From Leucobacter exalbidus (lineage in GTDB: Bacteria; Actinomycetota; Actinomycetes; Actinomycetales; Microbacteriaceae): a stretch of DNA of 64,000 nt. Positions 15,256-41,007 of the stretch are shown in pieces. The position numbers and the translations under genes are program-made. Where the stretch lies: positions 744,001 to 808,000 of the forward strand of contig NZ_JAFIDA010000001.1 in NCBI RefSeq assembly GCF_017834145.1, given 5' to 3'. The notes beneath the pieces are model-generated. The model was not told the origin of the DNA. It ran no database searches and saw only the letters and a program-made list of their open reading frames with translations. Position 1 is the stretch's first letter. Each line of letters starts with the position of its first letter.

Positions 15256-15924
15256 CTATTGTCGCGCAGTGAGCCGCCACATCGGTTGCGCCTCGCCAGC
15301 GCTCTCCTGCTGTGAGACATGCCCCAGCAGTTCCAGCTCGGCGAGCGCTCCCCGGGCCTCCTGCCGTTCGACCCCGGCGCCCCGACTCACCTCGTCGAGG
15401 CTGCGTGCGCCCCGCAGCGGCAATGCGTCAAGGATGCGGCGGTGCAGGGGCGGTGGCCGGTCTCCCCCTGGTGCGAGATCGAACAAAGCGACGTCAACGC
15501 CGATGCCCATCAGCTCTTGTGCTTCGGTGGCGTTGGTGACCAGCGTCGCGCCGTAATCCCGAATCAACCGGTGGCACCCGGCAGATGCCGGGCTCGTCAC
15601 CGGCCCGGGCACCGCGCCGAGCGCCCGCGACAGCTCAGCCGCGTGCCCCGCGGTGTTCAACGACCCCGAGCGCACCCCGGCCTCGGTGATGAGCGTGGCC
15701 CTGGCCAACGCTGAAATGCTTCTGTTGCGTTGCAAAAACCGCCAGCGAGTTGGCGCAGACCCCGGCACCATCTCCGAGCACACCAGCCCCCGTCTGGCAA
15801 TACTCTGCAGCAATTCGACGTGCCCGCTGGGATAGGGCCGGTCCACCCCGCCCGCGACCACCGCGATCGTGCCCCCGCCTGCGGCGAGCGCGGTGCGGTG
15901 AGCGACGGCGTCGATGCCGTAGGT
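15256..15924 (-). pseudogene. dprA: dprA 3' fragment (split by the mobile element)
   Basis: Encodes the C-terminal half of DprA, the RecA loader of natural transformation. It begins at TYGIDAVAHRTALAAGGGTI, continues with VDRPYPSGHVELLQ, SGSLNTAGHAAELSRALGAV and PGPVTSPASAGCHRLI, and ends with the winged-helix domain (LLGHVSQQE). The missing N-terminal half is at 40372-41007. The frame stays open into the element up to 16230 with unrelated residues, so a chimeric product could be translated (for instance from ATG near 15987), but it would lack the first half of the Rossmann fold. Confidence 0.92.
15919..15924. other. Left dprA/element junction
   Basis: Read on the minus strand this hexamer is ACCTAC followed by GGCATCGAC (GID of DprA). 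At the right junction the corresponding hexamer is GTCTAT. The exact crossover lies within or beside these six bases. The unoccupied site probably encoded SGA-x-YGID. Confidence 0.6.
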
Positions 15925-16045
15925 TCTCTCCCCCTTTCTGGCGTGTTGCGTGCGGGTGTCTGCTCCGGCGCTGAAAGATGGGCCCATGGGGATCAAACAG
16001 CATGTGTCTTGGAAGCTCTTTTTCTTCCCGAGGAGAGTCTCGGTC

Positions 16046-17512
16046 ATGGGTGACGAACTGCTCTTACGAAGTTTCGAGCAACAGCAGATCGCCGTTGAGC
16101 AGGCAGCGATCCCGTCACCTCTTGTTGGAAGACCATTCTTTCTAGACAATGACGGCAACCCACACATTGCCCTGAACCAGTTCTTTGGCAGCGGACGAAT
16201 GCGTAATCGTTCCGAAGGCACCAATCGCAAGTACGCGCATGCTCTAAGTGTGTGGGTGAATTTCTTGGTCAGACAAGGTACTAATTGGGATTCAGCGACC
16301 GAAGAAGATCTGCTCGATTACAAGTTTTGGCGCAGAACAGATGAGCGCAACCCGCGACCTGTGTCTGGCTCAACGTGGACTGGGGATGTGGCCGCGCTGA
16401 GCCTGTTCTACGACTGGGCTAAGAAGGCCCTCAATGGGCCAGATCTACTTGGAGGGGCCGACATTAGGGGAACTCGTCGGTACGCCGGTCGGGCGACTGA
16501 CGGGATCATGGTGAAGGCTTCGACGGTGCGCGGCGCTGACGTGAAGTGGCTGTCACCAGGGGCCTACCGAAAATGGCGCGACATTGGCATCCATGGGATC
16601 GCAGCGAACGGGGCTGAGCGGACTCGGTGGCGACCGCGGTCGCAATCTCGGGATGCAGCCTTCGTCGATGGAATCTATGGCAGTGGCTTGCGGCTTCAGG
16701 AATGGGCAAGTGTGCTCACGACTGAGCTACGTGAACCAGCACCTAGTCGCGACTATGTGACCCTCCAGCTGGCTGACGCCTGCGCTAAAGGCAGTCGCGG
16801 TCACCCCTACTGGCTGAGGCGTCAGACTCTCAATTCCGTCGCGGTGTACATCGAAACAGAACGAGCTACGGCTGTTCGTAAAGCTCAAGCCTTCGGCCTA
16901 TACGAACGGCTACCCGACGTTCAAATTGTTGAGTCGGTAAACGAAAAGGGTCGGGCAAGGATTACCGATGCCGCCACCTCATTTTCTAGAACAGTCAATC
17001 TCAATGATTTGAATCCGGATCAACGACGTGTGCTCTTCACACGAGATGACGGCGGTTTAGCCCCACTCATGCTTTGGTTAAACGAGGACGGTTCGCCCCG
17101 CCCCAAACGGGCCTGGTATAAATCCTTCTCCCGAGCGAATGAACGGGTACGGCGTTCCGGAATCGATCGGATGGTATGCCATCCACACATGCTTCGCCAC
17201 AGCTTTGCGCTGCGCTGGTATGCCGTAGGTCGCCTCATATGGGAACGACGGGATGTCGGCCTGAATAATAACCACGTCTTGGATTTTCGCCAGCAGTTTG
17301 GGGACACCTGGTCATTGGTTCAGACAATGCTGGGGCATTCAACTGTCGAGACAACTAGGAGCATTTATCTCGAGCCTTTCTTGACTCTCGATGTCCAGCT
17401 CATACTGCAGTACGGCTTGAGCGAGGTCGATGCCGAGTTACTCCTTCAAGTCCTTCAGACGAACCCTCGGGTTCGTCTTGATGAACCCTCCGAGATAGGG
17501 GCAAGTGCATGA
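16046..17512 (+). CDS. Tyrosine recombinase 1 of element (TnpA-like)
   Basis: 488 aa from ATG 16046, chosen because GAGGAG lies about 10 nt upstream. In-frame ATG 15986 or 15950 would extend it by 20 or 32 residues. It has an N-terminal SAM-like DNA-binding region (GTNRKYAHALSVWVNFLVRQ) and a catalytic domain with Arg in YGSGLRLQEW, HMLRHSFALRW (HxxR), LGHSTVETTRSIYLEPF (His and nucleophile Tyr). All key catalytic positions are present, so it is probably an active DNA strand-exchange enzyme. It reads inward from the left end with about 120 bp of terminal DNA before it. The stop overlaps the next gene's ATG. Confidence 0.88.
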   Translation: MGDELLLRSFEQQQIAVEQAAIPSPLVGRPFFLDNDGNPHIALNQFFGSGRMRNRSEGTNRKYAHALSVWVNFLVRQGTNWDSATEEDLLDYKFWRRTDERNPRPVSGSTWTGDVAALSLFYDWAKKALNGPDLLGGADIRGTRRYAGRATDGIMVKASTVRGADVKWLSPGAYRKWRDIGIHGIAANGAERTRWRPRSQSRDAAFVDGIYGSGLRLQEWASVLTTELREPAPSRDYVTLQLADACAKGSRGHPYWLRRQTLNSVAVYIETERATAVRKAQAFGLYERLPDVQIVESVNEKGRARITDAATSFSRTVNLNDLNPDQRRVLFTRDDGGLAPLMLWLNEDGSPRPKRAWYKSFSRANERVRRSGIDRMVCHPHMLRHSFALRWYAVGRLIWERRDVGLNNNHVLDFRQQFGDTWSLVQTMLGHSTVETTRSIYLEPFLTLDVQLILQYGLSEVDAELLLQVLQTNPRVRLDEPSEIGASA

Positions 17513-19317
17513 AGGGCGCAGCGCTCCCCGAGCACGGCTACGAACGTCCAAACAGTCTGATTCGGTTGAGCGACAAAGTCATCGTGCGTGTCTTCTCCGA
17601 GAACGGTTCCTCTCAGAAAGACTTTGATTTCCAAAGTTTTCAGATTGGTGAGGAACTCGAACTGGCTTTCGCTGAAGGCTTTGACCGAGCCACTGGACCT
17701 GGAGGAACCAGGCGCACGAACGAGTCGACCAAGAACCTCTACAGTGGGCTTCGTGCATTTGCCAAGCTACTCAACGCTGCGTCAAATCCCCCGCGCGCGC
17801 TCAGCGATCTACGTCCGGCGCACATAGCTGGCCTTAGATTGCAGGGCACCAAGAATAGCCAATCGATCGTGATGGCAATTCGGGTCGTTCTGCGTGGCAA
17901 TAGTTCACTCCCGACCCCATTCCGCGAGCTTCTCTTTGCACCCATGAAGTCCGCTGCGTACGTCGGCAAAGTTTCCGCCTACAGCGAGAGCGAGTTTCGG
18001 GCCATTCGGCGGTCGGCGCGTACCGAAATTCGCGCCGCCCTCAAACGAGTCCGAACCATGGAAGCTGAACTGGCTGCGTGGCAGCAGCATTCAGATGAGG
18101 TTGTAGATCCGGAAGTGGCACGGCGCGGAAACCTATTAGCCTTCATCGCTGCCAACGGGGATCTTCCACGGTATGAAAGCGGGCTTGTAAACCAATATGG
18201 TCCATACAAGAACTCTCCAAAAATATTCCGGTCGCTATTTCCCACGCTGTCCGAACTCGCTGCGATCGTGATTCTCATGCAGTGCCTGACAGGGCAGAAC
18301 GTGACAACGATTTGCGAGCTAACGACGGCCCACGCGCGAGCTGATGATCAGGAAGGCGAGGATGAAGTTCTTCTCATTCGCGCGCAGAAACGGCGCAGAG
18401 GGCGGCATGCTGCGGAAATGGATATCTCATTCACTTCGATGCCCGTCTGGCTGGATGAGGGCGGCAAGGATGACGATGACTTCGCCTCACCGTTTGGCTT
18501 GTTCAAGATCGCGGAAGAACTTTGTCACCGTGCACGCGCATTCGCTGGATCAGAAAGACTCCTATGTGCATATTCCAGCAAACGCCGCGAGACAACGTTC
18601 AATGGCCTTGGATTCCGAGGGATCAATCAAGTATCCGGTTCGATTTGGAACGGCTGGGTTCATGAGGACAAGCATTGCGACGGAATCGACACTATGCGGT
18701 TGCGCCGCACTTTCCTCGAACTTCACCAGCGCCCAGTGGCGCAGAAGTCCTCGACTCTCGCCGACACATATCTATCCAAGGATCCCGGTTCGCTACCTAC
18801 ATACCAAGCTGTCGTGGACGAGGCCTTATCGGACGAAGTAAATCGCATTCGTGCCACTAACACCATACGGACGCTGAGCGAGGATGAGGTGCGTGAAGCT
18901 GCGCAAGATCCTGAGGCACTCGCCGTACAGTTGGGGCTATCAGCCGGAAAACTCAAAGAGCTGCTCGATGGACGTTTAGACACGATCGCCGCGGCCTGTG
19001 TAGATCCTGATAACGGACCTTACGATCCAGCGGGACAAGCCTGTACTGCGTCTTTCCTGCTCTGCCTAGGCTGCCCCAACGCCCGCTCGGAACCACGACA
19101 CATCCCAGTCCAATCTCTTTTGAGCAAGCGAATCCGGGCCCGCAAACTCGAGATGCCGGCCGAACAATGGACCCAGCGATATCAGGTTGCTGATGAGCAG
19201 TTACAGGACCTGCTCCGCGAACAACGTGCTGACGTCGACGAAATGGCGCTTCAAACGAGTGATCACGACTTCCAGATGGTTGAAGCACTTCTCGAAGGAA
19301 GGTATGACATCCGATGA
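17509..19317 (+). CDS. Recombinase 2 of element (TnpB-like, degenerate)
   Basis: 602 aa; ATG 17509 overlaps the previous stop (ATGA). The length resembles Tn554 TnpB (about 630 aa). A recombinase-like core is seen at CLTGQNVTTICELTTAH, where the usual TGxRxxE Arg is Gln-Asn, and at DTMRLRRTFLELHQ, which has no HxxR. So the active site looks incomplete and the protein may be a structural partner. The C-terminus has ACTASFLLCLGCPNARSE, a Cys-rich motif seen in the third protein too (CVYNQTTALC). No independent function can be assigned. Confidence 0.75.
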   Translation: MKGAALPEHGYERPNSLIRLSDKVIVRVFSENGSSQKDFDFQSFQIGEELELAFAEGFDRATGPGGTRRTNESTKNLYSGLRAFAKLLNAASNPPRALSDLRPAHIAGLRLQGTKNSQSIVMAIRVVLRGNSSLPTPFRELLFAPMKSAAYVGKVSAYSESEFRAIRRSARTEIRAALKRVRTMEAELAAWQQHSDEVVDPEVARRGNLLAFIAANGDLPRYESGLVNQYGPYKNSPKIFRSLFPTLSELAAIVILMQCLTGQNVTTICELTTAHARADDQEGEDEVLLIRAQKRRRGRHAAEMDISFTSMPVWLDEGGKDDDDFASPFGLFKIAEELCHRARAFAGSERLLCAYSSKRRETTFNGLGFRGINQVSGSIWNGWVHEDKHCDGIDTMRLRRTFLELHQRPVAQKSSTLADTYLSKDPGSLPTYQAVVDEALSDEVNRIRATNTIRTLSEDEVREAAQDPEALAVQLGLSAGKLKELLDGRLDTIAAACVDPDNGPYDPAGQACTASFLLCLGCPNARSEPRHIPVQSLLSKRIRARKLEMPAEQWTQRYQVADEQLQDLLREQRADVDEMALQTSDHDFQMVEALLEGRYDIR

Positions 19318-21419
19318 ACACACAAGTTCTAATTACCGCCCAGCTTGAGGAAGATCCACCGGTACTCATGAATCGTCAGCTCCGACCTGATGACACGCGC
19401 CGAGGATCACTTTCACGATTCAGCGACGCTACATGGGACTTATCGCCGGGTGTATTCGAGGATCACAGCACGATGATTTCTTTGAACTTCGAGGTTTTCC
19501 CGGAACACTGGCGGCAAGACGTGAAGACTTACTTTTGGCATCTCATCAACGACGAGAAAATACGACCGCTGCCCGCTGGCCCTGTCGAAGCACTTCCGTC
19601 ATTGCGCACGATTGCCTTTGTACGCCCACACCTTCTTCGACTCATAACGTGGTTTGAGACTCAAGGAATCCGGAGCTTAGATAAAGCCACGCCTAAAATC
19701 CTGGACGCTTTGCTGGGCGATCTGAGCGAAACTGATCTCACCTATGCCCAGAAGCGACACATTCTTACGGAGACCCGGCGGCTCTGGGTCTACCGTGACG
19801 TGGTACCGGTGTCGATGCAATTGCCCGCAGCTGCGCCCTGGCATGATGAACGGGCCTATGACCTCTTAGGTCGTCCTCCTCAGAAACGTGAGAATCGGAC
19901 ACCGCGCATTTCCGATGGAACCCTGGCACCCCTCATGGGTTGGTCGATCCAGTTCGTCGAAAACTTTGCCGACGACATCGTTGGCAGCTACCATCAGTAC
20001 CTCGAACTGATAAAAAACGAATATAGACACAGACCTGTGGAGTCAGAGCAGTTGCAAGCTTCCGATCGGAAGCAACGCCTTCGAAGAACACTTGCTGCTT
20101 TAAAAAAGGCGGACGTTGGGCTTCCTGGGCGGGTTTTAGCGGACGGCACACGCGAGGTTCGATGGCAGCACCTGGGCCGTCTTGCGCGTGGCCCCGGACA
20201 TTCTTTTCCTAAATTTGATAGTAAAATGATCGCCCGTTCGGGTCTGCCGATCGACGACAATGCCTATCTGACCGTGCCCTGTTCGGCCATGCTAGATGGG
20301 GAGCTCTGGAGAGGGCGCTTCCTCGCTTGGGATGAGATCATTTCGTTGACAACACACCTTCAGACGGCATGCTTCGTCCTGCTCACCTACCTGTCGGGGA
20401 TGCGCCCTGGGGAAGCGTTGTCTCTCGAACAGGACTGCCTGATCTTGGACTCCAAGACCGGACTCTGGGCGGTCTCTGGAATTCAGTGGAAATCCGCAAA
20501 GAACACGAATGGCCAGAAAGCGGCAGAAGGGCAGCAGCGGTCCGTACCGTGGATCGTACACCCGCTAGCGGCAGAGGCAGTAAGAATACTCACAAAGCTG
20601 AGCTCAGGTCGACTTCTCTTCCCCAATTCATTGCGCCCGCGAGCAATACGTGGGTTAAATTCCCCCGACAACCTACGAGCTGGGACGGCACGAACCTCGT
20701 CGCAGATTGGCACAGATCTCGTCAGATTCATTGACTGGGTGAATGACTACTGCACATCTAACAATCGAAAAGACAGCATCCCCGCGGATCCACATGGTCG
20801 CGTCAGCCCGAGTCGATTCCGGAGAACCCTGGCCTGGCATATCGTCCGTCGCCCACGAGGCCTCGTGGCTGCAGCGATTCAATATGGACATGTCGCCACC
20901 TACGTCACACAGGGATATTCGGGAAGTTATGCCTCCGGCTTTCCTGATGAACTCGGCTTCGAACGGTGGCTCGAACGAATTGACAATGTTCAAGACGTAG
21001 AGGAATACCTCAACAATGGCGGACATCTAAGTGGGCCCGCGGCGACCGAACTCGAGCAGCGTACAAGGCTTGCTACCGCGAAGTTCTTGGGCCGCACCAT
21101 TCCCACCAGACGCCAAGCTAACGCGCTCCTCTCCGACCCCACGCTCCAAGTATTTAAGGGGGCAGGCATGCACTGCGTCTATAACCAAACAACAGCACTC
21201 TGCTCACGAAATGATCAAGGGCCAGCGCTCGGTGAGTGTCGAAGTGCCTGCTCGAACATCGCTAGAACAGACGGAGATATTAACGAGCTCAAGGAAATGG
21301 TCGCCGAATTGAACGACGATATCCTTGCGCCGCCGATCAGATACCAACGCGCTCAACTCGTCGCAAGCACGCTCACAAAAGCGATTCATGAACACGAAAG
21401 CAACCAAAACGATGACTGA
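19314..21419 (+). CDS. Tyrosine recombinase 3 of element
   Basis: 701 aa; ATG 19314 overlaps the previous TGA. The catalytic region includes Arg in YLSGMRPGEALSLEQDC, then SRFRRTLAWHIVRRPRG where HxxR has become RxxR-like, YGHVATYVTQGYSGSY supplying His and Tyr, and a C-terminal Cys cluster (MHCVYNQTTALCSRND and GECRSACSN) that may bind metal. It most resembles the large TnpB-class recombinases. Three such proteins in one operon also recall recombinase-in-trio elements, so classification between that group and Tn554 is open. Confidence 0.8.
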   Translation: MNTQVLITAQLEEDPPVLMNRQLRPDDTRRGSLSRFSDATWDLSPGVFEDHSTMISLNFEVFPEHWRQDVKTYFWHLINDEKIRPLPAGPVEALPSLRTIAFVRPHLLRLITWFETQGIRSLDKATPKILDALLGDLSETDLTYAQKRHILTETRRLWVYRDVVPVSMQLPAAAPWHDERAYDLLGRPPQKRENRTPRISDGTLAPLMGWSIQFVENFADDIVGSYHQYLELIKNEYRHRPVESEQLQASDRKQRLRRTLAALKKADVGLPGRVLADGTREVRWQHLGRLARGPGHSFPKFDSKMIARSGLPIDDNAYLTVPCSAMLDGELWRGRFLAWDEIISLTTHLQTACFVLLTYLSGMRPGEALSLEQDCLILDSKTGLWAVSGIQWKSAKNTNGQKAAEGQQRSVPWIVHPLAAEAVRILTKLSSGRLLFPNSLRPRAIRGLNSPDNLRAGTARTSSQIGTDLVRFIDWVNDYCTSNNRKDSIPADPHGRVSPSRFRRTLAWHIVRRPRGLVAAAIQYGHVATYVTQGYSGSYASGFPDELGFERWLERIDNVQDVEEYLNNGGHLSGPAATELEQRTRLATAKFLGRTIPTRRQANALLSDPTLQVFKGAGMHCVYNQTTALCSRNDQGPALGECRSACSNIARTDGDINELKEMVAELNDDILAPPIRYQRAQLVASTLTKAIHEHESNQNDD

Positions 21420-21810
21420 CAATGAGGCTGAACAAACCCGTACCTTGCTTCAGCAGGCAGCCGATGATCTTCTTGAAGGTCGCGTTGAAGGCCCGCTGAC
21501 CGGATTGCGACTCATCGAACTCGCGGGAGTCAAACGGCATCGGCTCACGCACGACAACCCTGACATTAATAAAGCGTTCCAAGAGCGTGCACGAATGTTG
21601 AATCGTACAAAACCGGAGGTCGACCAGCTCCGAACCCGGCTTACCGAGGAGATCGCACGGAACACTCGACTCAGCTCCGAACGAATGGAACTTGCAGAGC
21701 GAGTGAAGAACTACGCCGCTGCGCTGGCGCTCGTATTAGATGAACGCGATCAGCTACGCGAAGCTCTCAACGGCGAACAAAACTTGGTGACAATCCCGCG
21801 GTTTCGGTAG
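21412..21810 (+). CDS. TnpC/DUF6262-like small coiled-coil protein
   Basis: 132 aa from ATG 21412, which overlaps the end of recombinase 3. ATG 21388 is an alternative. An N-terminal helix-turn-helix-like part (LTGLRLIELAGVKRHRLTHD) is followed by a heptad-rich coil (NRTKPEVDQLRTRLTEEI). Tn554 TnpC is a small non-catalytic protein that affects transposition frequency and orientation; position, size and coil match, but sequence homology was not tested. Last gene of the recombination operon. Confidence 0.7.
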   Translation: MTDNEAEQTRTLLQQAADDLLEGRVEGPLTGLRLIELAGVKRHRLTHDNPDINKAFQERARMLNRTKPEVDQLRTRLTEEIARNTRLSSERMELAERVKNYAAALALVLDERDQLREALNGEQNLVTIPRFR

Positions 21811-21902
21811 TTCGTGACCTCTGCCGAGAAGTAGCGTTGTGCCCTCATTGCAGGATGGTGAGATCGCCGCTCACAAGGACCGCGCGTGTGCCCGCAAGAG
21901 TT

Positions 21903-22109: not shown

Positions 22110-22199
22110 GCTGCCGAACGGTGTGCTGGGCCTAGATCTGCTCAGAAGCGCCTCCCCAAAAGGCGTGCAAGTGTTCATGGACTGCGGCAGACTTGAGGC

Positions 22200-22684: not shown

Positions 22685-22723
22685 GCGGCGACCCGGATCT
22701 GATGTCAGTGGTACCGTGCTGAC

Positions 22724-23209
22724 TCACTCCTGGCTGCGGCCATCAATGATCACCATTACGTCCGCCAGAGTATGGCCGTCAGTGAGCCACTGCACCGGGC
22801 TGAGACCACCCAGCATTTCGTCCGCGTCCGGCTCCGTCATGAGGTCGCGGACAGTGACTGGATGGTAGCTGCGTGGCAATGCGCGGACAATCTCCTGCAG
22901 CCCCGGCAGAAGACCCGACGTCGTGAATTGCCACGTCGGGAACCAGATCGCTTCACCTACCTCAGACGCAAAAGAGTACAGCGCGCCCTCCGACGCAGCA
23001 CGACGCACACTGGCGGGCTCGAGGTTGAGGAACACAGCGACGCGGTCGACATCCCACGATGCAGCCACGGCTTGCTGGTGAGCTGCTGCGCGATTTCTAG
23101 CAAGCTCGGCATCACCCTCTCGAAGCGCCTCATCCGAGAGATCAGCTTCTGTCAGGCCAGCATACTTGATGAGAAAGTCGTGGTCAGCGCGGTCGGCTTC
23201 GGTTGTCAT
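22724..23209 (-). CDS. Hypothetical protein with HTH-like and ParS/MbcA-like tail
   Basis: 161 aa from ATG 23209 (MTTEADRADHDFL). A GTG at 23242 would add 11 residues. The middle reads SWDVDRVAVFLNLEPASVRR, like a helix-turn-helix followed by a WFPTWQF beta segment; the end (VTVRDLMTEPDADEMLGG, then PVQWLTDGHTLADVM) recalls the toxin-antitoxin Xre/MbcA/ParS tail in which a protein selects rows by a 'P...WL..G' motif. No toxin gene is adjacent, so I do not call an antitoxin. Confidence 0.55.
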   Translation of the reverse strand: MTTEADRADHDFLIKYAGLTEADLSDEALREGDAELARNRAAAHQQAVAASWDVDRVAVFLNLEPASVRRAASEGALYSFASEVGEAIWFPTWQFTTSGLLPGLQEIVRALPRSYHPVTVRDLMTEPDADEMLGGLSPVQWLTDGHTLADVMVIIDGRSQE

Positions 23210-23431
23210 AATGACGACGCTACGCGTTGCCGGCGACGCCACACAAGGATGGTGTAGCTTGTTGCCAGGGCTTGGAGCGCCATCGAGAACTTGTTCCGTG
23301 GGTTCTGAGACTTGAATGTCTCATTGATGAGGTGTTGCGCAGTCCTCGCTTCACCGTAGTCACCCCAGCTACTTTGGTCACAAAGAACCCTCTACGCTTT
23401 CGCTGCTGTGTTAGCCGACACCATGATTGGA

Positions 23432-23740
23432 CTAACCAGTCGTGGTCCCTGCAATCTGTTGCAGGGCACGGACATGCGCATCGAACGCAACCCGTCCAGC
23501 AGAGGTAAGGGCCAACCAAGTAATGCGGCGTGCGTCATTTCGTCCGGCGAATGCGGCTTTGTTGGAGGAAACGTACCCGGCCGTGACCAAAGTCTTCAAG
23601 TGCTTGGAAAGCGTGGCATCCGAGATGTTCAGTGCGTCACGCAGAACAGCGAAATCAAGTTGTTCGACCGGACGCAGGAGCCCACAGATGCGCAATCGCA
23701 CGGGCGCGTGGATGATCTCATCAAACGCAACCTCATTCAC
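23432..23740 (-). CDS. Winged-helix transcriptional regulator (MarR/ArsR-like)
   Basis: 102 aa. A compact winged helix: APVRLRICGLLRPVEQLDF, LRDALNISDATLSKHLKTL as recognition helix, and the wing with NDARRITWLALTSAGR. This is the single-domain type usually paired with a small membrane protein, as here: its start lies 8 bp inside the upstream membrane-protein gene. It probably autoregulates the pair. Ligand unknown. Confidence 0.8.
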   Translation of the reverse strand: MNEVAFDEIIHAPVRLRICGLLRPVEQLDFAVLRDALNISDATLSKHLKTLVTAGYVSSNKAAFAGRNDARRITWLALTSAGRVAFDAHVRALQQIAGTTTG

Positions 23741-24200
23741 TACGCAACTTCTCCGTTGCTGATCGAAAAGCGACGCCAGCCAGCCACGTCGTCAACGCGA
23801 ACGCGATAAGGCTGGTTATTGAGACAGCCCAGTACGCGCCGAAAGACACGAGACCGAGAGAAAGACTGAACAGCGCGAGGCAGATGGCAATGATCGCGAC
23901 CGTTGCCCAACCGGCTCGGGCACCCATCGATCGGAAGCGGATCCCGGTCTCTAGCGTGATCAAGTACGAAACGACGAGCGTGACAACTATAGCCAGCCAA
24001 CTCGATGTGGGCGGTTCGTAGCTCTCGCCAGGACTTGCCGAGGCCGCGCCAGCAACCCACCACGCGCCCACCCCGCCGAAGGCGGCCAGCAGCGCCCAGG
24101 GCACGTTTACGTTCGCTGCAAGTTGTTCCCGGTCGGCCGATAGCGCGTTCAGGGCGTCCGTGGCTGCGTCTGGCGATGGCCCGCTAAAGTTGTTTTCCAT
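23733..24200 (-). CDS. Small membrane protein paired with regulator
   Basis: 155 aa from ATG 24200 (MENNFSGPSP); the frame is open to 24236. Four hydrophobic segments are visible: VPWALLAAFGGVGAWWVAG, SWLAIVVTLVVSYLIT, WATVAIIAICLALFSLSLGL and YWAVSITSLIAFALTTWLA. It overlaps the regulator gene by 8 bp, so the two are coupled. No transport motif. Function unknown. Confidence 0.65.
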   Translation of the reverse strand: MENNFSGPSPDAATDALNALSADREQLAANVNVPWALLAAFGGVGAWWVAGAASASPGESYEPPTSSWLAIVVTLVVSYLITLETGIRFRSMGARAGWATVAIIAICLALFSLSLGLVSFGAYWAVSITSLIAFALTTWLAGVAFRSATEKLRSE

Positions 24201-24371
24201 AACGGAAAGCATATTGTTCATTTTCCGAATTGGCAAGTAACTTTACGACCCACACCACCACGCACGCATTGTCCAGCCGACGCAGATCGCCACTTTTGCA
24301 CGCAGTCACGGCCAATCTCGAGACATCGGCGCTACGCGTTGCTGGCGGAACCAGACAATGCTGGCGTTGGT

Positions 24372-24618
24372 GCGCCACCGTTTATCACCCACAAGTGACC
24401 CGGGTTCCTGACAAGCGCGCCACCGGAGCTTGACCCTAAGTGGGTCAAGAAGCGCCACCATTTTTCACTGCCCCGAGCAACACAGGGAAAGGCTGAGCAT
24501 AATCCGCAGAAACATGCGGTTCTTGCAGCTCACGTAAACCAGGTTCAAGCCTCAAGCGCCACCGTTTATCACCGTGTTGTGTGGCAGCCCCGCTGTGGAG
24601 CGCCACCGATTATCACCG
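24372..24618 (+). repeat. Direct-repeat cluster, unit GCGCCACCGTTTATCACC
   Basis: Strong copies at 24372-24390, 24555-24574 and 24599-24618 (the last with GATTATC), plus partial copies at 24417-24425 and 24451-24468. A separate palindrome, CTTGACCC/GGGTCAAG, lies at 24429-24449. The surrounding 24201-24764 has no convincing gene. Such arrays resemble the multiple terminal repeats of IS21-family elements, but no transposase is present, so this may be a remnant or a regulator-binding array for the downstream two-component operon. Confidence 0.6.
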
Positions 24619-24764
24619 GGCAGATTGAAGACCCGTTCTCCAAATTTGGGCGGGCGCAAAGCGCTGGAGTTCCATGCCCTGGATGGGGACTGGCCTTATA
24701 TCACTCCTCTCTTTGGCGTCGCGGTAGCCAGCTGCGTTGGACACGTACCTTCTACGATGGATAC

Positions 24765-26575: not shown

Positions 26576-26660
26576 ATGCCGGTGGGTCCACTCCTTTGAT
26601 CTCCGGATTGTCAACGTCTGCAGACTGACACATCGGGGCTGACTTGGTTGACTCGAAGGC

Positions 26661-28156: not shown

Positions 28157-28166
28157 GGCGCAGCTC

Positions 28167-31989: not shown

Positions 31990-32009
31990 AGATGTAGGAG
32001 GTGGTTGCA

Positions 32010-32681
32010 ATGACCCAAATAGGAATAGAAGAGTCGGCTTCAAAGCTGAGGAACGCTTTGGAAGCGTCTGCCTCGTCGGTGAGGCTACAGGCGGCTCTCA
32101 CAGCGGGGAGCGCCCCGACCCCGGGCTACATCGACGTGCTGATTGACCGGTGCGCGATCGAACCGGACTTCTATGTGCGTGACATGCTGACGTGGGCACT
32201 GATCCGCAATGACGCGTCGGCAGTGGCCGAACGGCTGCTAACGGAGCTAGGCTCCGACGTCACACAAGCGCGGGCCCAGGCCCTTCATACTCTATCGAAG
32301 CTTGGACACCCTGACACTTGGCCCGCAATCACCTCGGCGCTCTTGCAGGACGAGGATGACGAGGTCGCTCGCGCCGCGTGGCGCACGGCTGCCGGATTGG
32401 TTCCCTCTGGCGGAGAAGCTGATCTGGCCGAGACTTTGTCAACGCAGTTCAACCGTGGAGATCGGGAGGTTCAGCTGAGCCTCAGCCGCGCGTTCGCCGC
32501 TTTGGGAGAGGGCGCGACGGCGGTCGTCGAGCGAGCAACGACCGACTCTGACACAGGGGTGCGTGCGCATGCGCTGGCAACCGAAATACTCATGCAAGAT
32601 CCTGACGAAGCGTTCGATGCCGCGATTGCAGAAGCACGTCGAGTCGTTGCTCTTCGCGATTCGCCAGTTGTGAAGGATTGA
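32010..32681 (+). CDS. HEAT-repeat protein
   Basis: 223 aa from ATG 32010 with AGGAGGT 8 nt upstream. Made of repeated two-helix units: VRDMLTWALIRNDASAVAE, ARAQALHTLSKLGHPDTWP, VARAAWRTAAGLVPSGGE and VQLSLSRAFAALGEGATA. HEAT solenoids bind proteins or DNA. Followed after 4 bp by a MerR regulator that itself ends in HEAT-like repeats, so the two proteins may interact. Its promoter is the 19-bp-spacer site at 31959. Confidence 0.8.
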   Translation: MTQIGIEESASKLRNALEASASSVRLQAALTAGSAPTPGYIDVLIDRCAIEPDFYVRDMLTWALIRNDASAVAERLLTELGSDVTQARAQALHTLSKLGHPDTWPAITSALLQDEDDEVARAAWRTAAGLVPSGGEADLAETLSTQFNRGDREVQLSLSRAFAALGEGATAVVERATTDSDTGVRAHALATEILMQDPDEAFDAAIAEARRVVALRDSPVVKD

Positions 32682-32685
32682 GCGG

Positions 32686-33678
32686 ATGCTTATCGGCGAG
32701 GTCTCCGAGCAGTCCGGGATCAGCGCCCGAATGCTACGTCACTACGACAAGATCGGGCTCGTATCGCCCACCGGACGGACGCACGGCGGGTATCGGCAGT
32801 ACTCAGAGCAAGACGTTCAACGCCTCTTCCACGTAGAGTGTCTCCGCTCTCTCGGATTGAATCTGCAAGAGGTCGCAAAAGCGCTCGGAGACCTCGCGTT
32901 CGATCCGGCACCCTTGGTCGAACAGATGATCACCCGCACACGCACCCGCGTTGCCGAAGAGGAGGAGCTGCTGCGCAGACTAAACCAGGTACACAGGAGC
33001 AGCCCCGCCGCATGGTCCGACGTGCTGCGCACCATCGGACTGGTGCGAGGACTCGAAGTCGACGACCCGTCAGCGCGACAACGCCTCGCCCTTGCGCTAA
33101 CCGGCGAGGGGCAAGCGGACGTCCCGTCCCTCACCGAAGCAGCGCTGAGCGAACTCGATCCCAACGCTGCGGGTGCTCTCTACTGGGCAATCGCGCGGAA
33201 CGGTGATAAGGCAATCCCGATTCTTGCGGAGGCATTGAGCTCACCTGACGCCGGGCGACGAGGCCGCGCAGTCGAGGCACTGGAGAAGATTAACTCCCCC
33301 CGTGCTCTCGCTGCGCTTGGCGACGCCTTCCAACACTCCGACCCGTTGGTTAGCGGGCGAGCCGTGCTCGCACGCGGCACCCGCGGTGACACGGATGTCA
33401 TTCCCGATCTGGTCGCCCTCATCATCGATGGCCGCTACGACATCGAAGCCGCGGATGCCCTTGGCGTGCTGGCAGCAGAGGACAGTTGTGCGGATGGCAT
33501 TGTTCGTGCGATTGTCGCCGGACTTTCAGAAGCACCAGTCGCCGCTCGCCAACGCTTGACGGCTACACTCGCGGAGATTCCCGGGTCGGCGGCTGAAGCT
33601 ACGCTCACCGCCCTCGTCAATGACTCTGACCGCGGCGTCGCTCTGACCGCGACCTCCGTCGTCCGCGCGCGCCGATGA
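32686..33678 (+). CDS. MerR regulator fused to HEAT-like repeats
   Basis: 330 aa. N-terminal MerR winged helix MLIGEVSEQSGISARMLRHY and YDKIGLVSPTGRTHGGYRQY, then the dimerisation helix (LLRRLNQVHRSSP). From about residue 120 to the end there are HEAT-like units, e.g. ALYWAIARNGDKAIPILAEA and GRRGRAVEALEKINSPRALA. No metal-binding Cys. It probably acts on the palindrome at 31961-31983. The effector domain being a solenoid suggests sensing through a protein or large molecule. Confidence 0.85.
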   Translation: MLIGEVSEQSGISARMLRHYDKIGLVSPTGRTHGGYRQYSEQDVQRLFHVECLRSLGLNLQEVAKALGDLAFDPAPLVEQMITRTRTRVAEEEELLRRLNQVHRSSPAAWSDVLRTIGLVRGLEVDDPSARQRLALALTGEGQADVPSLTEAALSELDPNAAGALYWAIARNGDKAIPILAEALSSPDAGRRGRAVEALEKINSPRALAALGDAFQHSDPLVSGRAVLARGTRGDTDVIPDLVALIIDGRYDIEAADALGVLAAEDSCADGIVRAIVAGLSEAPVAARQRLTATLAEIPGSAAEATLTALVNDSDRGVALTATSVVRARR

Positions 33679-33738
33679 GAACCTCATATGTGCGTCCGCA
33701 ACCCGACCGGCTTATGGGAGACATGGGAACATTCTGGA

Positions 33739-34485
33739 ATGCCTACCTTTGACCTTCGTCCGTTAACGGCCGGACAAGTGGAATTGCATGACGCTCGACG
33801 GAAACGCCGCTGGACCGTCGACCTAGAACCTTTTGCGATTGGGGCTGTCCCCGTCACCACCGCTCAATACGCGCAGCTGATGGGTAATAGAGAATCGGGT
33901 TCGGAATCGCCGCTGGTAGATATTACGTGGTTGGAAGCCATCAAGTTTTGCAATGCGGCCTCGATGAAAGAAGATCTTGCCCCTGCATACTTCTTCGAAG
34001 CAGACGAGGTGATTTGGCAGACCAACGCTTCTGGGTATCGGCTGCCCACCGAAGCCGAATGGGAATATGCGTGCCGAGCTGGCACTGTGGGGTCACAGTA
34101 TGGACCCCTCGATGCCATCGCTTGGACATCGAACGACAAGCTGGAGAACCCGAAAGAAGTTGGTCAAAAAGAGCCCAATGCATTCGGGCTTCGCGACACT
34201 CTTGGAAACGTCTGGGAATGGTGCTGGGATTTGCTAGATCCTGCCCGCTACGGAGATTACCGGGTCTTCCGAGGAGGAGGCTTTGCTGACAAGCCGTGGA
34301 GTGTCCGGGCCTCGACGCGCCGAGGCGGTGCACCTGGAATGAGCCACCCAGACCTTGGCCTGCGGTTGGCACGCGGTGCATATGATGATGCTCTGGCAGC
34401 TCAAGGATGGTCATCGGCGGCAGACTCTGAACGTGGAAAGATCGCTGGCATGCTGCCATCTGGATGGACACCTAGGCGACACTAA
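33739..34485 (+). CDS. SUMF1/FGE-fold protein lacking the active-site cysteines
   Basis: 248 aa from ATG 33739 (MPTFDLRPLT). An upstream ATG at 33688 would add 17 residues. Family motifs: VPVTTAQYAQLMGN, YRLPTEAEWEYACRAGT, NAFGLRDTLGNVWEWCWD, VFRGGGFADKPWSVRASTRR and LGLRLAR. True formylglycine-generating enzymes have a Cys pair just after the RGGS/W motif; here that segment has none, so sulfatase activation is unlikely. The fold is also used as a ligand-binding or ergothioneine-type module. No sulfatase gene is nearby. Confidence 0.82.
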   Translation: MPTFDLRPLTAGQVELHDARRKRRWTVDLEPFAIGAVPVTTAQYAQLMGNRESGSESPLVDITWLEAIKFCNAASMKEDLAPAYFFEADEVIWQTNASGYRLPTEAEWEYACRAGTVGSQYGPLDAIAWTSNDKLENPKEVGQKEPNAFGLRDTLGNVWEWCWDLLDPARYGDYRVFRGGGFADKPWSVRASTRRGGAPGMSHPDLGLRLARGAYDDALAAQGWSSAADSERGKIAGMLPSGWTPRRH

Positions 34486-34977: not shown

Positions 34978-35556
34978 ATGGCACTGGTAGGACTTGTACG
35001 AGTAAACGCCAAGGGTCAAGACACTGCCCGGCAGCACGACGCGCTGGACCAGATCTGTGTCAAGGTCTTCGAGGAGAAGGTCAGCGGGAGCCTGAAGCTG
35101 GACAAGCGACCGGGGCTGCAGGCGGCGCTTGAGTACATCCGGCCCGGCGACATGCTCGCTGTACAAGAGGTCGACAGGCTTGGGCGCAACCTCATCGAGG
35201 GCCTGATCGTCTTGGAGGATCTATTCAAGCAGGGCATCCTCGTCAAGGTGCTCGAAGGCATTGCCGCTGGGGAGCACAAGGAGCGTAGCTTCCTGCTCGA
35301 CCTCGCGTTCGCGCTGGCCGAAGACCGCCGCCGCGACATCGTGAAGAAGACCAAGAGTGGCCTGGAAGCAGCACGCACGCGAGGGAAGGTCGGAGGCCGT
35401 CCCCGTGTGGTCGACGAGGACAAGCGAACAGTAATCCTGGCTCGTCGGGAAAAGGGCGAGTCGATCCGAGCGATTGCTAAGGCCGTCGGCGTCTCTGTCG
35501 GCACTGTGTCTGGTGCCCTCAAGGAAGCACCCCTGGAAGAAAGCGAGGTCGCCTGA
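34978..35556 (+). CDS. Serine-recombinase family protein with Asn10 in place of Ser
   Basis: 192 aa. Resolvase fold with VEKVSG-type strand, GDMLAVQEVDRLGRNLIEGL (the conserved Asp-Arg-x-x-Arg pair), RSFLLDLAFALAEDRRRDIV and a C-terminal helix-turn-helix with GESIRAIAKAVGVSVGT. The N-terminal motif is LVRVNAKGQ instead of the standard ARVSTxxQ: codon 10 is AAC (Asn), one base from AGC (Ser). The nucleophile is therefore absent in this reading. It may bind res without recombining, act as a regulator of the genes downstream, or use an adjacent residue. It overlaps the next gene as TGATG. Confidence 0.8.
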   Translation: MALVGLVRVNAKGQDTARQHDALDQICVKVFEEKVSGSLKLDKRPGLQAALEYIRPGDMLAVQEVDRLGRNLIEGLIVLEDLFKQGILVKVLEGIAAGEHKERSFLLDLAFALAEDRRRDIVKKTKSGLEAARTRGKVGGRPRVVDEDKRTVILARREKGESIRAIAKAVGVSVGTVSGALKEAPLEESEVA

Positions 35557-36227
35557 TGGCTCAGGACATCGGCGAGCAATTGATCCTCGCAGAGTGGCTG
35601 TTCGTCGAGACGGTCGACGACCTCCGCCGGCGGAGCACCAATCCGGAGACACGAACCAGGTATGAGCTGTTGGGTATTGCGCCTCTGTTGCGAAAACTAC
35701 TGACCGATGGGAAGGCCCTACTCAACACAATAAAGACCACACGACCCGAAGTTCCGATTGAATTTCACATCCGCTCTTGGAATGAGATCGAGGACAAGCT
35801 TGCCGCTGCGGGGTTACCACGCCACTTCGGGAACGGAGGTGAGCGGATCATTGGCGACCCCGGCGGTCCCGCCGTGGGATTGGAGCAGTTCCTCAAGACT
35901 GACATCGGCGTTGCCGAAGGTAACGACCTTTCCGTCAAGAGCGTGATCCGCTACTACGCTCACGTCGAAGGTGGGGTGCACTTCGGCAAGCCCGCTGAGC
36001 CAGGAGAATCCACTTTGAACGGCATGGCACCGTTGCTACTCGGACACTCAACTGGTCAGATCCAAATCCTTGGCAGCCTTGGGCAGATAGCCGTCGACGC
36101 GATGGAGCCATTGCGCCAATCCATCTTGTCTGAGCCAACGATTCATGGACTGTGGCATCGCAAAGATGATCACGGGCGCTTCATGAACCACTGGACGACT
36201 GAATATCTGCAGGCGCTGCGCGATTAG
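35556..36227 (+). CDS. Unknown protein, full-length copy of the 21.9 kb remnant
   Basis: 223 aa, ATG 35556 overlapping the previous TGA. Predominantly helical. It has a central RYYAHVEGGVHFGKPAEPG segment and a C-terminal half (STGQIQILGSLGQIAVDAM) shared with the remnant at 21903-22109. I recognise no named domain; the His/Gly-rich motif could be functional. It sits between a recombinase-like gene and a DUF4365-like nuclease, all close-packed, so co-expression is likely. Confidence 0.7.
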   Translation: MAQDIGEQLILAEWLFVETVDDLRRRSTNPETRTRYELLGIAPLLRKLLTDGKALLNTIKTTRPEVPIEFHIRSWNEIEDKLAAAGLPRHFGNGGERIIGDPGGPAVGLEQFLKTDIGVAEGNDLSVKSVIRYYAHVEGGVHFGKPAEPGESTLNGMAPLLLGHSTGQIQILGSLGQIAVDAMEPLRQSILSEPTIHGLWHRKDDHGRFMNHWTTEYLQALRD

Positions 36228-36281
36228 CACGATGCGTGGTGTGGGAGTTGCCCCATTCCATGTCTATGGGATCCTTTAGAC

Positions 36282-37301
36282 ATGACGGAAGCTCGAACCA
36301 AACAACGACAAAGGCGACATATCAGCGCAGACAGCGGTGTCGACATCGTCAAACGCAAGCTCCCTCGCTCGTGGGTTGTCCGGGAGATGAGCCCCGATTA
36401 TGGCCTTGACTTGCACGTTGAAGTGTTTGGTCCAGATCCGACCGATCCCGAAAGCGCGAACACACTCGGCGAACATTTCTATATCCAAGTAAAAGCCACG
36501 GAGCAGATCGAGCTCCATAAACACGTCGTACGCAGTCGGGGAAATGTTACAAAGCTTGACCCTGCCCCCAACGACGGCACTCCGATGACGATCAGGGTCG
36601 CGAAGTTCACACTCGACACAGAAACACTTCTGACAGTTGAGACAATGGGTGCCGCTATTCCAGTTCTCCTTTGCTACGTCGATCTGAAGACTGAAGACGT
36701 CTATTACGTTTGTCTCAATGACTACTTAGCCAAAGTGTTGCTGCCCACCAATCCGGCATATCAGGAGCAAAACACGGCTACTGTCTACATCCCGTCGTGG
36801 AACCAGCTAGACCAGCACGATCCAAGCTTTTCGTATATCGGACTGCTTGCACGTAGAGGCAAGTATTATTCAGCGTTCAATACGTTTGCATATCAGCTCA
36901 AAGAGCTCGATAATGCTTTGTTTCGCGCCGGCATCCCTGAACCGAACTCGCCTGTAGTCGTTCCACCGAGAGAGCTTCTCACCCTGGTGAGGCTGTTTCT
37001 TCGAGCTGATCTTCGACTTGCGATCTGGGACAAAATCGATGGATCATACTGGTCGCCTCTGGAGGATGTGCAATCTGACCTAAAGACTCTGCAAGATACT
37101 CTCCCAAAGGTGGGCGCTGCGATACCTGCAATCGAATTGACGGAGTACATGAGCGCGTTGCACATTGGCTTCTCACGCGCAGTCAACCTTGGGCGCATGT
37201 ATGAGGAATTGGTCCGGGAGTGGCGGCAGCCCACTTACCTTGCGGCCGGCTTGGACCGCAACCCAGCACAGGCAGTCAATCCGCCGGAATGGCCCGAATA
37301 G
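36282..37301 (+). CDS. DUF4365-like protein, predicted PD-(D/E)XK nuclease fold
   Basis: 339 aa. N-terminal RHISADSGVDIVKRKLPRSW and MSPDYGLDLHVEVFG (Asp43, Glu47), then FYIQVKATEQ (Gln69, Lys71): D-(x)-E...QVK is the PD-(D/E)XK arrangement of DUF4365. Nucleases of this type are frequent in mobile and defence loci; activity here is predicted, not shown. The C-terminal two-thirds (from about residue 170) is helical and unassigned. Its end overlaps the small Cys-rich gene at 37289 by 13 bp. Confidence 0.75.
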   Translation: MTEARTKQRQRRHISADSGVDIVKRKLPRSWVVREMSPDYGLDLHVEVFGPDPTDPESANTLGEHFYIQVKATEQIELHKHVVRSRGNVTKLDPAPNDGTPMTIRVAKFTLDTETLLTVETMGAAIPVLLCYVDLKTEDVYYVCLNDYLAKVLLPTNPAYQEQNTATVYIPSWNQLDQHDPSFSYIGLLARRGKYYSAFNTFAYQLKELDNALFRAGIPEPNSPVVVPPRELLTLVRLFLRADLRLAIWDKIDGSYWSPLEDVQSDLKTLQDTLPKVGAAIPAIELTEYMSALHIGFSRAVNLGRMYEELVREWRQPTYLAAGLDRNPAQAVNPPEWPE

Positions 37302-37531: not shown

Positions 37532-37543
37532 CGGCTTTCGTAA

Positions 37544-39592
37544 CTAGCTGGACGGCAACCCCAACCTGTCAAAAAACGCTCGGTTTCGTTCTTTCGCTCC
37601 ATTGACAAGGCCGTCGAAACTGATGACTTCGATATACGCCTTGTAAGGCTCGTTGTAACCGAAGTACCCGAGCCCGTCGTGGGTCTTGGTCAAGTTGGAC
37701 TTCTTGCATCGACTCACCATCGTCGGAGTGAGATCGGCAATCACATAGCAGAACGCAGGCGGCTCCTGCGGACTTGACGGGATCGGCCTCCCCATCGCGG
37801 TCTTCGTTTTACCCTCACGAATACGTTCGACGTAGTCCAAGCACTGATCGATCGGGTTCTCCCCTTCGGCCGCATCATTGCGCATCGGACGTTTGAGTTC
37901 GACGACGACGATCGAATTCAGCGGCGGATTTTGGCGGTCAGAAGTGAGCACCGGCAAGTCCGGTTGGATCGGCCGAGACACCACGATGTCTGGACGCTTC
38001 ATGGACTCATCCCCAGTGATAACTATGCTCTTGAGCGATTTGTCGGACGCGAGGTAGTCATGAAAGACGAGCCGCTCGTCCAAAATCCAGAGATTCGACG
38101 CGTCCATCCCGACATCGTTCGAGTCTTTTCGCATCGGGAAAAGTAACTCGTGAATGGAATCTTCACGGGCGTACTTGCCATCTTCGCCCGATCGGATGAG
38201 CTCCTCAAGAATGTCGAGCGTGGTGCGACGTCGCGCGACATAGTTGGCCAGGTCCGACTGGTTGAGCTCGGTGAGGGTCTCGACGTACTTGGCAAGACGT
38301 TTGTCATAGCCTTCGGGCTTCTTGCCACTCGATACGGCAAACACGGCCTGGCCCTCGGCCAGTAACTCGGTCTCAATCTTCTGGGCGTGCTTGTGGAGCT
38401 CCAGCTCGAGGTCGGTGTCCTTCATTGACGGGTCCACGACGATCCCGGCCGATTCGATGCGCTTCATGAGAGGGCGGAACTTGGGCCCCTTCGTGCTCAC
38501 GAAGTGGTTGATTCGCTCTTTGCTCGCGGTCTGCGCTGACGCCAGTGGCTCGGCAAGGGTCTTCGCAACCTCTTTCAGGACACCTGTACGGATGTCATTG
38601 AGCGTTGGCTCGTTGAGGATGGCTTCGCCCGGCAAACGATCTGGCAGGTCAAAATCAGTGCGGTCGGCCCTGACGTGGTCGTCAAGGAAGGCTGAAGACA
38701 AATAACAGACGTAGGTAAACTCGCCTGAGGCGCTGTCCTTCATACGAGCGTAGAGCCCAGGAAGCTTGCCAGCGATGCTCTCGTCCTTCACAACGCGGTT
38801 CGCGGCACACCAATGCAAGCGGGGCGTGGCGTTGCGGGCCGAGGTCTTCAGACGGAGGTTAAGCATTGTAAACGTCTGCCCTTTGACCTCGAAAGAAGCC
38901 GTGGTCTCTGTGTACCCAAGTTCTTCGACGAAGTCTTTGAGCGAGTAAGCTTCGTCGTCGTCCTTAACGACCACGTCAGGAGCTCCGCCATCGCGGAGAA
39001 AATACCAGATGCAGTGTTCGAAGATCTCCCGAGCGATTGCCTCGGCGGACTTCGCTGCGCTCTGCTGGTAGGCCTTCTTAAAACCGTCGAGTCGCACGGT
39101 TGTACCGGAATCAGTCAATCCTTCGGGCGAGACGCCCTGAACGACGTCCTGGGCAATCGAAAATTTGAACTGCCGACCAGAGAGCAAGCCACCGTCGTAG
39201 TACGCGCTACGAACCTCGACGCGGTCGAACGCCACGAGCCACAGGAGCCGCCCCACTCCACGACAACCAATGCCTGCCTTATAGTCGCTGTCGAGTGTCT
39301 CGAACGACGTCATGTTGTCGGGGGTGAATCCGACGCCGTTATCCACGACGCTGAAACCGGTAATGACCCTCATCGGTGAACGACCACGAGATTCGGCATT
39401 AAGGTCGAACACCCCTTGAGTCTCACGATGGATCTGGACGGTTAGTCGACCTCGACCGGCACTATCTTCGGGGAACCGGACGTCGATCGCCTGGATGCCG
39501 TTCACAACCGCCTCATGGAGCGGGAGTAGCGCGTGGCTCTTGGGTAGTGTCGTGTTCCGCACCCGACCCACCAGGGATGTCTTTAGCGCCAT
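37544..39592 (-). CDS. GHKL ATPase fused to PD-(D/E)XK nuclease
   Basis: 682 aa from ATG 39592, with AGAGGAG just upstream; a GTG two codons earlier is the alternative. N-terminal Bergerat-fold ATPase: HEAVVNGIQA (Glu27, Asn31), SVVDNGVGFTPDN and GIGCRGVGRLLW. A middle S5-like part follows. C-terminus: RPDIVV (Asp535), VVVELKRP (Glu565, Lys567) and NPIDQCLDYVERI, the classical nuclease motif order. Iyer and colleagues described bacterial GHKL ATPases linked to restriction nucleases as relatives of eukaryotic MORC proteins; this single-chain fusion resembles that group. Probably DNA- or RNA-cleaving and ATP-gated. Read toward the DUF4365 operon. Confidence 0.85.
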   Translation of the reverse strand: MALKTSLVGRVRNTTLPKSHALLPLHEAVVNGIQAIDVRFPEDSAGRGRLTVQIHRETQGVFDLNAESRGRSPMRVITGFSVVDNGVGFTPDNMTSFETLDSDYKAGIGCRGVGRLLWLVAFDRVEVRSAYYDGGLLSGRQFKFSIAQDVVQGVSPEGLTDSGTTVRLDGFKKAYQQSAAKSAEAIAREIFEHCIWYFLRDGGAPDVVVKDDDEAYSLKDFVEELGYTETTASFEVKGQTFTMLNLRLKTSARNATPRLHWCAANRVVKDESIAGKLPGLYARMKDSASGEFTYVCYLSSAFLDDHVRADRTDFDLPDRLPGEAILNEPTLNDIRTGVLKEVAKTLAEPLASAQTASKERINHFVSTKGPKFRPLMKRIESAGIVVDPSMKDTDLELELHKHAQKIETELLAEGQAVFAVSSGKKPEGYDKRLAKYVETLTELNQSDLANYVARRRTTLDILEELIRSGEDGKYAREDSIHELLFPMRKDSNDVGMDASNLWILDERLVFHDYLASDKSLKSIVITGDESMKRPDIVVSRPIQPDLPVLTSDRQNPPLNSIVVVELKRPMRNDAAEGENPIDQCLDYVERIREGKTKTAMGRPIPSSPQEPPAFCYVIADLTPTMVSRCKKSNLTKTHDGLGYFGYNEPYKAYIEVISFDGLVNGAKERNRAFFDRLGLPSS

Positions 39593-40004
39593 GGCCACTC
39601 CTCTGATTCGATTATCGAAACTCTATTTGAAGAGTCCGACATTAGGAGAGCCTCTTTTCACCGAGGTCGCCAGCGTCTTCGTCTCCTGAGTCCGAATCAG
39701 GGCCGCAATATGGTCGTAGACGTTTCGCCACTTAGTGCACCTTTCGAAGACCTCTAGAATCCACGCAATTCTATGGCGGTAAAGGTCTTTGCCCTAGGAA
39801 TGCACGCTGCTCGGAGGGTCGGGGCCTTGTCCGACATCCCTTCGAATTGCACTTGGAATTCGACGCCGAGGCCATTGCTCCGAAAGCTACCCAGCTCAGA
39901 GTTGAATCCATGCATCTAGCCTTTACGTCCCCGGCGACGAAACGCCAGCCCCTCCTCCACATACACACAAATTCACCGCTGGATCGCTTGCCCTGATTGG
40001 AATC
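39593..40004. other. Gene-poor stretch upstream of GHKL gene
   Basis: About 410 bp that must hold the GHKL-gene promoter. Open frames are short and lack ribosome sites. I see no repeat or RNA structure here. Confidence 0.35.
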
Positions 40005-40217: not shown

Positions 40218-40319
40218 TTCGTCAGTACCCAAGGAAAACGATTGCGGGATTGTAATTCTCGAGTCTCCCCATCATGACCATCACGGCTCAAAAGCAAAAG
40301 TTGAGAAAGCATTGGGCGA

Positions 40320-40363
40320 CCCCAAATTTCTCTTTCCTTTGGAAGCAACAACATAATTTGGGG
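40320..40363. repeat. Inverted repeat near the right element end
   Basis: CCCCAAATT (40320-40328) and AATTTGGGG (40355-40363), 26 bp apart, ending about 10 bp from the dprA junction. Placement suggests recombinase arm sites or a terminator protecting the element. Confidence 0.55.
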
Positions 40364-40371
40364 TACAGAAT

Positions 40372-40377
40372 ATAGAC
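40372..40377. other. Right dprA/element junction
   Basis: On the minus strand GTCTAT follows directly after the DprA codons for SGA. The matching left-end hexamer is ACCTAC. Crossover lies within or beside it. Confidence 0.6.
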
Positions 40378-41007
40378 GGCGCCCGAGACGATGGTGGCGC
40401 CGGCGGCGCACACGCCGTCGGTGATTTCTGCGGTGATGTGTGCCCCGTACCCGGTGTTTGCCCGTGCGCCGACGACGGCGAGCGAGATCTCAGACAGCAG
40501 TTCGGTGCGGCCGCGCGCCCACAGTACGACGGGGGCGTGGTATCCGAGGTCGTTGAGACTGTCTGGCCAGTGGGGGTCGCCGGGAATGAGGAGGCGTGTG
40601 TGGGTTTCGGCGGCGCTTGCCAGGTCGTGGAGGGTGGCGTTCTTATCCAGCCGGGGGCGCCACCTGGCGATCCCCTTGACGAACGCTGCGGGGTCGATGT
40701 CGAGGGACGCTGGGGCGCGGGAGCCTGTATCGAGTGTGCCCGCGATGACGGTCTCGAGGGCGGCGACGGCGCCCAGTGTGGCGATGAGGTGACCGGCGAT
40801 GGCGTCACCGGGTTCGATGAGTCGCGCCCAGGTGGCGCGGGCAAAGACCTCGGCCACACGGCTGGACACCGGTTCAGTCGCTGAGGCTTGCGGGTCGATC
40901 GCTTCAGGAGCTGCGGGGTCGGGCTCAACATGGTCTGTGCCGTGGGCTTCCCAGATGGTCCGGATCAGGGCGTGGGTGCCCGGGTCGATGCCGAGTGTGC
41001 TGGTCAT
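40372..41007 (-). pseudogene. dprA: dprA 5' fragment (split by the mobile element)
   Basis: ATG 41007 overlaps the comM stop (ATGA) with GAGGAGGA before it. It encodes the N-terminal 210 residues of DprA up to SLAVVGARANTGYGAH and GATIVSGA, the first half of the Rossmann fold; the conserved SGxxxGID motif is cut here. Beyond the junction the frame continues about 30 codons into element DNA and stops at 40288, giving a tailed, non-functional protein. The remainder of the gene is at 15256-15924. Confidence 0.92.

Follow-up and report, generated by a model that had tools for sequence, protein, structure and literature searches.

Tn554 has radC as its target, and dprA is a gene that some bacteria need for using DNA acquired from outside. 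Element insertions in competence genes have been published along with a model of why such insertions pay; the accessible part of that text names comK, comYC, comFA, comM, comEC and radC as interrupted, not dprA, a word that occurs there twice, both times in reference titles (PMC4774983). In open PMC text we found no report of an insertion into dprA, and nothing bringing together dprA, an integrative element and Actinobacteria. Among the described systems with comparable recombination genes, SEs have been reported solely in Gammaproteobacteria, leave no empty site after circularization and move by a copy-out process, with the native 6 bp located beside the intA-proximal end and a foreign 6 bp at the other (PMC10214605). 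The insertion of GInts probably does not fully inactivate their targets, and the words actinobacteria and dprA are missing from the main text of the paper that describes them (PMC5385486). The RIT archetype comprises three recombinases of 315 to 410 aa, all with a catalytic Tyr (PMC10214605).

The window, that is, the whole 64,000-nt stretch of Leucobacter exalbidus DNA analyzed here, likewise contains mobile DNA inside a competence gene, as in the accessible part of the survey cited above (PMC4774983). Its dprA is found on the minus strand in two in-register halves, with the break within SGAA/YGID. An earlier note had read the gene as broken in register by an insertion carrying its own recombinases and foreign cargo, and this is borne out by the two halves spanned by NCBIfam TIGR00732, by the exact ends and by a ginABCD-like module at one end with cargo genes behind it (Table 1). 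Every named match among the 120 ComM relatives listed is a Leucobacter, which places the host in this genus or close to it. A search of the whole genome located the dprA pieces at C1:784378-784611 and C1:759523-759921, both on a single closed contig (3,181,803 bases, 99.93% complete), so that a join error is unlikely. When the intact gene was sought in the genus, the SGxxxGID motif was uninterrupted in 29 of the 30 Leucobacter dprA loci fetched (the pattern missed L136), and comM lay within the fetched flank at 26 of the 28 loci of a stricter listing, as it does in the window. Since the split falls inside this conserved region, the DprA copy of the window is, as judged from its sequence, very probably dead.

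Table 1 Features of the interrupted dprA and of the inserted element (positions in the window)
Feature	Position	Strand	Remarks
dprA C-terminal part	15256..15923	-	YGIDAVAHR... to stop; TIGR00732 positions 83-215
ginA-proximal hexamer	15918..15923	.	CGTAGG (coding strand CCTACG)
Left terminal inverted repeat	15924..15949	+	TTCTCTCCCCC...GTGTTGC; 16/26 positions match right end
ginA/intA-like	15986..17512	+	Ordinary tyrosine recombinase, 508 aa from chosen ATG
ginB/tfp-like	17509..19317	+	Tyrosine-recombinase fold, 602 aa
ginC/intB-like	19314..21419	+	Large tyrosine recombinase, 701 aa
ginD/srap-like	21412..21810	+	132 aa, coiled-coil-like by sequence; aligned with 12 relatives
Unknown protein, HTH_34 regulator, small protein without Pfam match	22724..24236	-	
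HisKA_3 sensor kinase, LuxR-type response regulator, ABC ATPase, two ABC-2-like permeases	24579..28910	+	Pfam
AAA_13 ATPase, candidate defence gene	29258..31750	+	PADLOC PDC-S06, 7e-157
HEAT-repeat protein, MerR+HEAT regulator, FGE-sulfatase-type protein	32001..34485	+	
Serine resolvase, unknown protein, DUF4365 protein	34978..37301	+	
684-aa protein without Pfam match	37544..39598	-	
Right terminal inverted repeat	40345..40370	-	Reverse complement TTCTGTACCCC...GTTGTTGC
ginA-distal hexamer	40371..40376	.	TATAGA (coding strand TCTATA)
dprA N-terminal part	40377..41007	-	Start codon at 41007; ends ...IVSGA plus one base; TIGR00732 positions 5-81

The element extends from 15924 to 40370 (24,447 bp), with a GC content of 57.2% versus 64.7% and 66.4% in the flanks. 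The imperfect inverted repeats of 13 to 19 bp found in SEs have a counterpart at its ends, where 16 of 26 positions are identical (9 of the first 11), a match equalled by 26 of 200,000 random pairs drawn from the element. The two flanking hexamers differ from each other. At this site, the 29 genus dprA loci have CCTACG (18), CGTACG (7), CATACG (3) or CATATG (1), and the distal TCTATA was found in none of them; the ginA-side hexamer of the window is thus native-like and the distal one foreign, in agreement with the SE rule. TCTATA resembles the hexamers of three relatives, L014 to L016 (TCTACA, TCTACT and TTTACA), which suggests, judged from six bases alone, that the element may have come from a polymerase-type site.

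In the alignment of 24 GinA proteins, R248, H413, R416, H463 and Y473 (numbering of the longer 520-aa frame) are invariant, and Pfam matches a Phage_integrase domain (4e-8) and a SAM-like N domain. GinC retains R364, H509, R512, H526 and Y535 in all 23 aligned sequences, the residues being assigned by motif reading, with a Phage_integrase match (2e-4) below the cut-off of that family. By motif reading, GinB has an invariant Asn264 in place of the first catalytic Arg and keeps a Tyr in the expected place, so that the invariant RHRY columns are present in the first and third proteins and missing in the second, as in SEs. Foldseek alone gave no match for GinB below an E value of 0.001, and a recombinase fold was matched on a second look. 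No conjugation or phage families were seen among the element genes scanned, nor did GinB match any of 50,697 phage records, and we reject an identity as ICE or phage. Among the cargo proteins, the AAA_13 ATPase has a match in PDC-S06, a family of candidate anti-phage defence proteins.

By architecture and size, the module follows the IntA-Tfp-IntB-Srap order that SEs show at one end; the proteins of the SE located on pSEA1 beside blaGMA-1 measure 408, 581, 720 and 135 aa, versus 508, 602, 701 and 132 aa here (annotated coordinates). Overlapping genes, the 6-bp asymmetry and the lack of a conjugation family in the genes scanned are also common to both. Profile comparison, of low power with a single SE sequence in each case, matched GinA to the first SE integrase (probability 83, E value of 8.8e-6), GinC only weakly to IntB (22, 0.00096), and found no homology to Tfp or Srap. 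In contrast to SEs, the host here belongs to the Actinomycetota, the insertion site lies inside a coding motif and, as described below, the native hexamer is not on the same side in all relatives. With GInts, the likeness is one of architecture, taken from their published description: one end encodes a small protein and three of recombinase type, the cargo is large, insertion is site-specific and the att repeats are imperfect, although their degenerate recombinase is the third (GinC), whereas here it is the second, with R, H, R, H and Y retained in the third (PMC5385486). The three large proteins (508, 602 and 701 aa) and the fourth gene of the module do not correspond to RIT. The Tn554 family shares an ordinary and a large tyrosine recombinase, a small protein and a 6-bp footprint with the element, but it is without the Tfp-like gene present here, so its TnpA, TnpB, TnpC pattern does not apply (PMC10214605). 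The comparison with Tn554 and AbaR drawn in the earlier note therefore holds as an analogy only, the module being SE/GInt-like.

A search with one GinA sequence as the query gave no match to relatives. GinA relatives were found in 2 of 54 genomes of the genus and 8 of 398 of the family and, under a stricter limit, in 4 of 396 genomes of the order and 24 of 394 of the class (own genome included in all cases). The search with the GinC alignment provided 186 genome loci, the best 80 of which were kept. Among 72,556 plasmid records, 230 matched GinC at an E value of 0.001, with Streptomyces first and Agrobacterium and Sphingobium also present. GinC-like large recombinases were matched on Agrobacterium, Sphingobium and Rhizobium plasmids, and the wider family may thus not be confined to Actinomycetota.

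To describe the targets, 108 ginA-side flanks of relatives were examined, of which 102 were distinct. Protein matches stop at the element edge inside dprA in five of them (the window, L024, L028, L036 and L102), inside comM in seven (L005, L007, L008, L052, L087, L088 and L093) and inside comEC in four (L053, L065, L071 and L092), that is, 16 of 102. The other 86 showed no junction with these genes, although some are perhaps not true element ends. Pfam named 24 of the 30 target fragments scanned, mostly with the ginA-side half alone seen; among those named are DNA ligases, a Y-family polymerase, an N6 methylase, DpdA, GmrSD, PCMT, a kinase, a transporter and an esterase. It had no match for L023 (which we take to be WGR-type), L026, L027, L048, L081 and L106. 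The elements of L081 and L090 end in a gene that resembles CoiA by its motif.

Insertions into dprA occur at a single codon position, in either orientation, and those into comM at two sites. The earlier note had proposed dprA as a landing site from this single case; because the position is shared by four loci besides the window, the gene is a recurrent one, and so are comM and comEC. In G1170 and G1059, both dprA halves are on one contig, separated by about 40 kb and about 6 kb, respectively, and in G1169 they are on two contigs, with no further dprA match in any of these three. In the metagenome assembly G1168, the N half is at a contig end, the C half was not found, and two further DprA-like genes are present. 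Similarly, seven of seven genomes have comM in at least two pieces, which share a contig in six genomes and are spread over two in G1172; three of the seven still pass the family cut-off with the larger piece or pieces. In G1173, comM seems to be cut into three by two insertions (L173, L174 and L182).

The rule for the native hexamer was not uniform among these relatives. L028 has the hexamer of its genus (CCTTCG, present in 9 of 29 Rhodococcus loci) on the ginA-distal side. The distal hexamer of L036, CATTTG, is absent from the 29 genus loci, yet it encodes the A-F-G of the genus, unlike the proximal hexamer. The native side is thus the opposite one in L028 and, going by the encoded residues, in L036 as well, and we reject a uniform SE rule for this family. 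G1059, with an identical hexamer on both sides, and L023 are uninformative in this respect, and in the Streptomyces comM insertions the two flanking hexamers differ.

Regarding what chooses the site, the nearest relative on the GinA tree, L014, sits at the polymerase-type codons YSIDEAF, where its site reads CTACAGCATCGACG versus CTACGGCATCGACG in the dprA of the window. L016 is one base off L014. A single element (99.85% identity over 7,417 bp) was found in two genomes, in dprA in L024 and in an unrelated gene in L023, both sites containing GCCTA[CT]G. Taken together, the L014 string and this shared element suggest that the site is chosen at least in part by its DNA. Not every choice follows from DNA identity, since L015, whose target is a Y-family polymerase by Pfam of the same group as L014 and L016, shares just 10 of 14 half-site bases (CTACTCGATCGATG) at the same YSIDEAF motif, and the ligase gene that holds L018, a member of the same clade, lacks the L014/dprA string. 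The exact dprA half-site was found, among the nearest polymerase relatives, in L014 alone. In the host genome, the half-site CTAYRGCATCGACG occurs exactly once, within dprA; 25 one-mismatch half-sites are all unused, and the pattern read backwards gives 9. Of the idea that the gene is chosen as a conserved transformation gene, the recurrence of dprA stands, but the choice as such is weakened by the short DNA string common to unrelated genes.

We consider it probable that the 24.4-kb insertion is an SE/GInt-type island that integrated itself by means of its ginABCD-like module at the A-Y-G spacer of dprA, guided largely by DNA. The module comprises a pair of catalytic tyrosine recombinases, a degenerate protein of recombinase fold and a small accessory protein, and a circular form would integrate across the 6-bp spacer in the codons A-Y-G of SGAAYGID. 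We infer that recognition would be largely by DNA sequence, which would be conserved at the site solely because the protein motif is conserved. Integration has left this dprA copy broken. The insertion is real and precise, it recurs in other genomes, and the SE/GInt-like element responsible lies beyond the host range published for SEs.

In the host, a second, full-length DprA-like gene (L001) is present at C1:1808930, and a host wholly without DprA-type gene is rejected. A phage-type integrase and a transposase-like gene are located in the vicinity of L001. In the genus, many genomes contain two or more DprA-family matches, and 50 of 54 (own included) contain a full-length gene above the cut-off, perhaps not always the comM-linked copy. 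The host comEC is also split (N part at C1:303596-304474, C part at C1:343718-345439; L240 to L242) by about 39 kb of inserted DNA, as one or more elements, with a large serine-recombinase gene, read from sequence, beside the junction at C1:342169-343701. Two transformation genes of one chromosome are therefore interrupted by foreign DNA. comM is intact, and comEA looks intact by reading.

Such a double interruption fits both an arms race, as modelled in PMC4774983, and relaxed selection. If transformation has been lost from the lineage, insertions in comEC and dprA would be tolerated and accumulate, a possible reading toward which the split comEC of the same chromosome points, although the intact comM, the apparently intact comEA and the full-length DprA-family genes of the genus speak against it, and we lean somewhat against it. 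The family might instead be selected to hit transformation genes, their breakage stopping homologous removal of the element. The 16 of 102 flanks (a raw count) are compatible with this, as are the single dprA codon position in both orientations and the two comM sites, the model of benefit in the accessible part of the published account (PMC4774983), and a minimum of 11 switches between transformation-gene and other targets on the GinA tree, a count without a shuffled control from 100 rows and a quick method (L028 is absent because its ginA frame is split). We find targeting of this kind unlikely, given the 86 flanks without such a junction, several of them in ligase, kinase, transporter and esterase genes, the near-identical element in the non-competence gene of L023, the interrupted comEC and the dprA paralogue.

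That the element gains by blocking transformation is possible, and that disabling transformation protects it is plausible. More elaborate, and in our opinion rather doubtful, is the proposal of an actinobacterial SE/GInt-like branch repeatedly specialized in codon sites of dprA, comM and comEC, which would break uptake recombination and escape removal, with hosts perhaps answering with an accessory DprA and the foreign hexamer recording the previous site, here polymerase-like. An assembly artefact or chimeric join is extremely improbable and was rejected, given the closed contig, the precise inverted-repeat ends, the two hexamers, the in-register halves and the same position in other genomes.

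With this locus, dprA joins the competence genes in which interruption by mobile elements has been found, and an extension of SE/GInt-like elements to Actinomycetota is suggested. The near-identical element of L023 and L024 provides a natural comparison between chance of site sequence and selection against transformation, while flanking hexamers may allow the last donor site to be read from sequence. In L115 (G1166), a distant GinA relative adjoins a truncated gene for a type II/IV secretion ATPase, perhaps of the Tad-pilus type, which we take to be tied to DNA uptake. Two recombinase modules were found back to back or close together in one locus in both L051 and L093.
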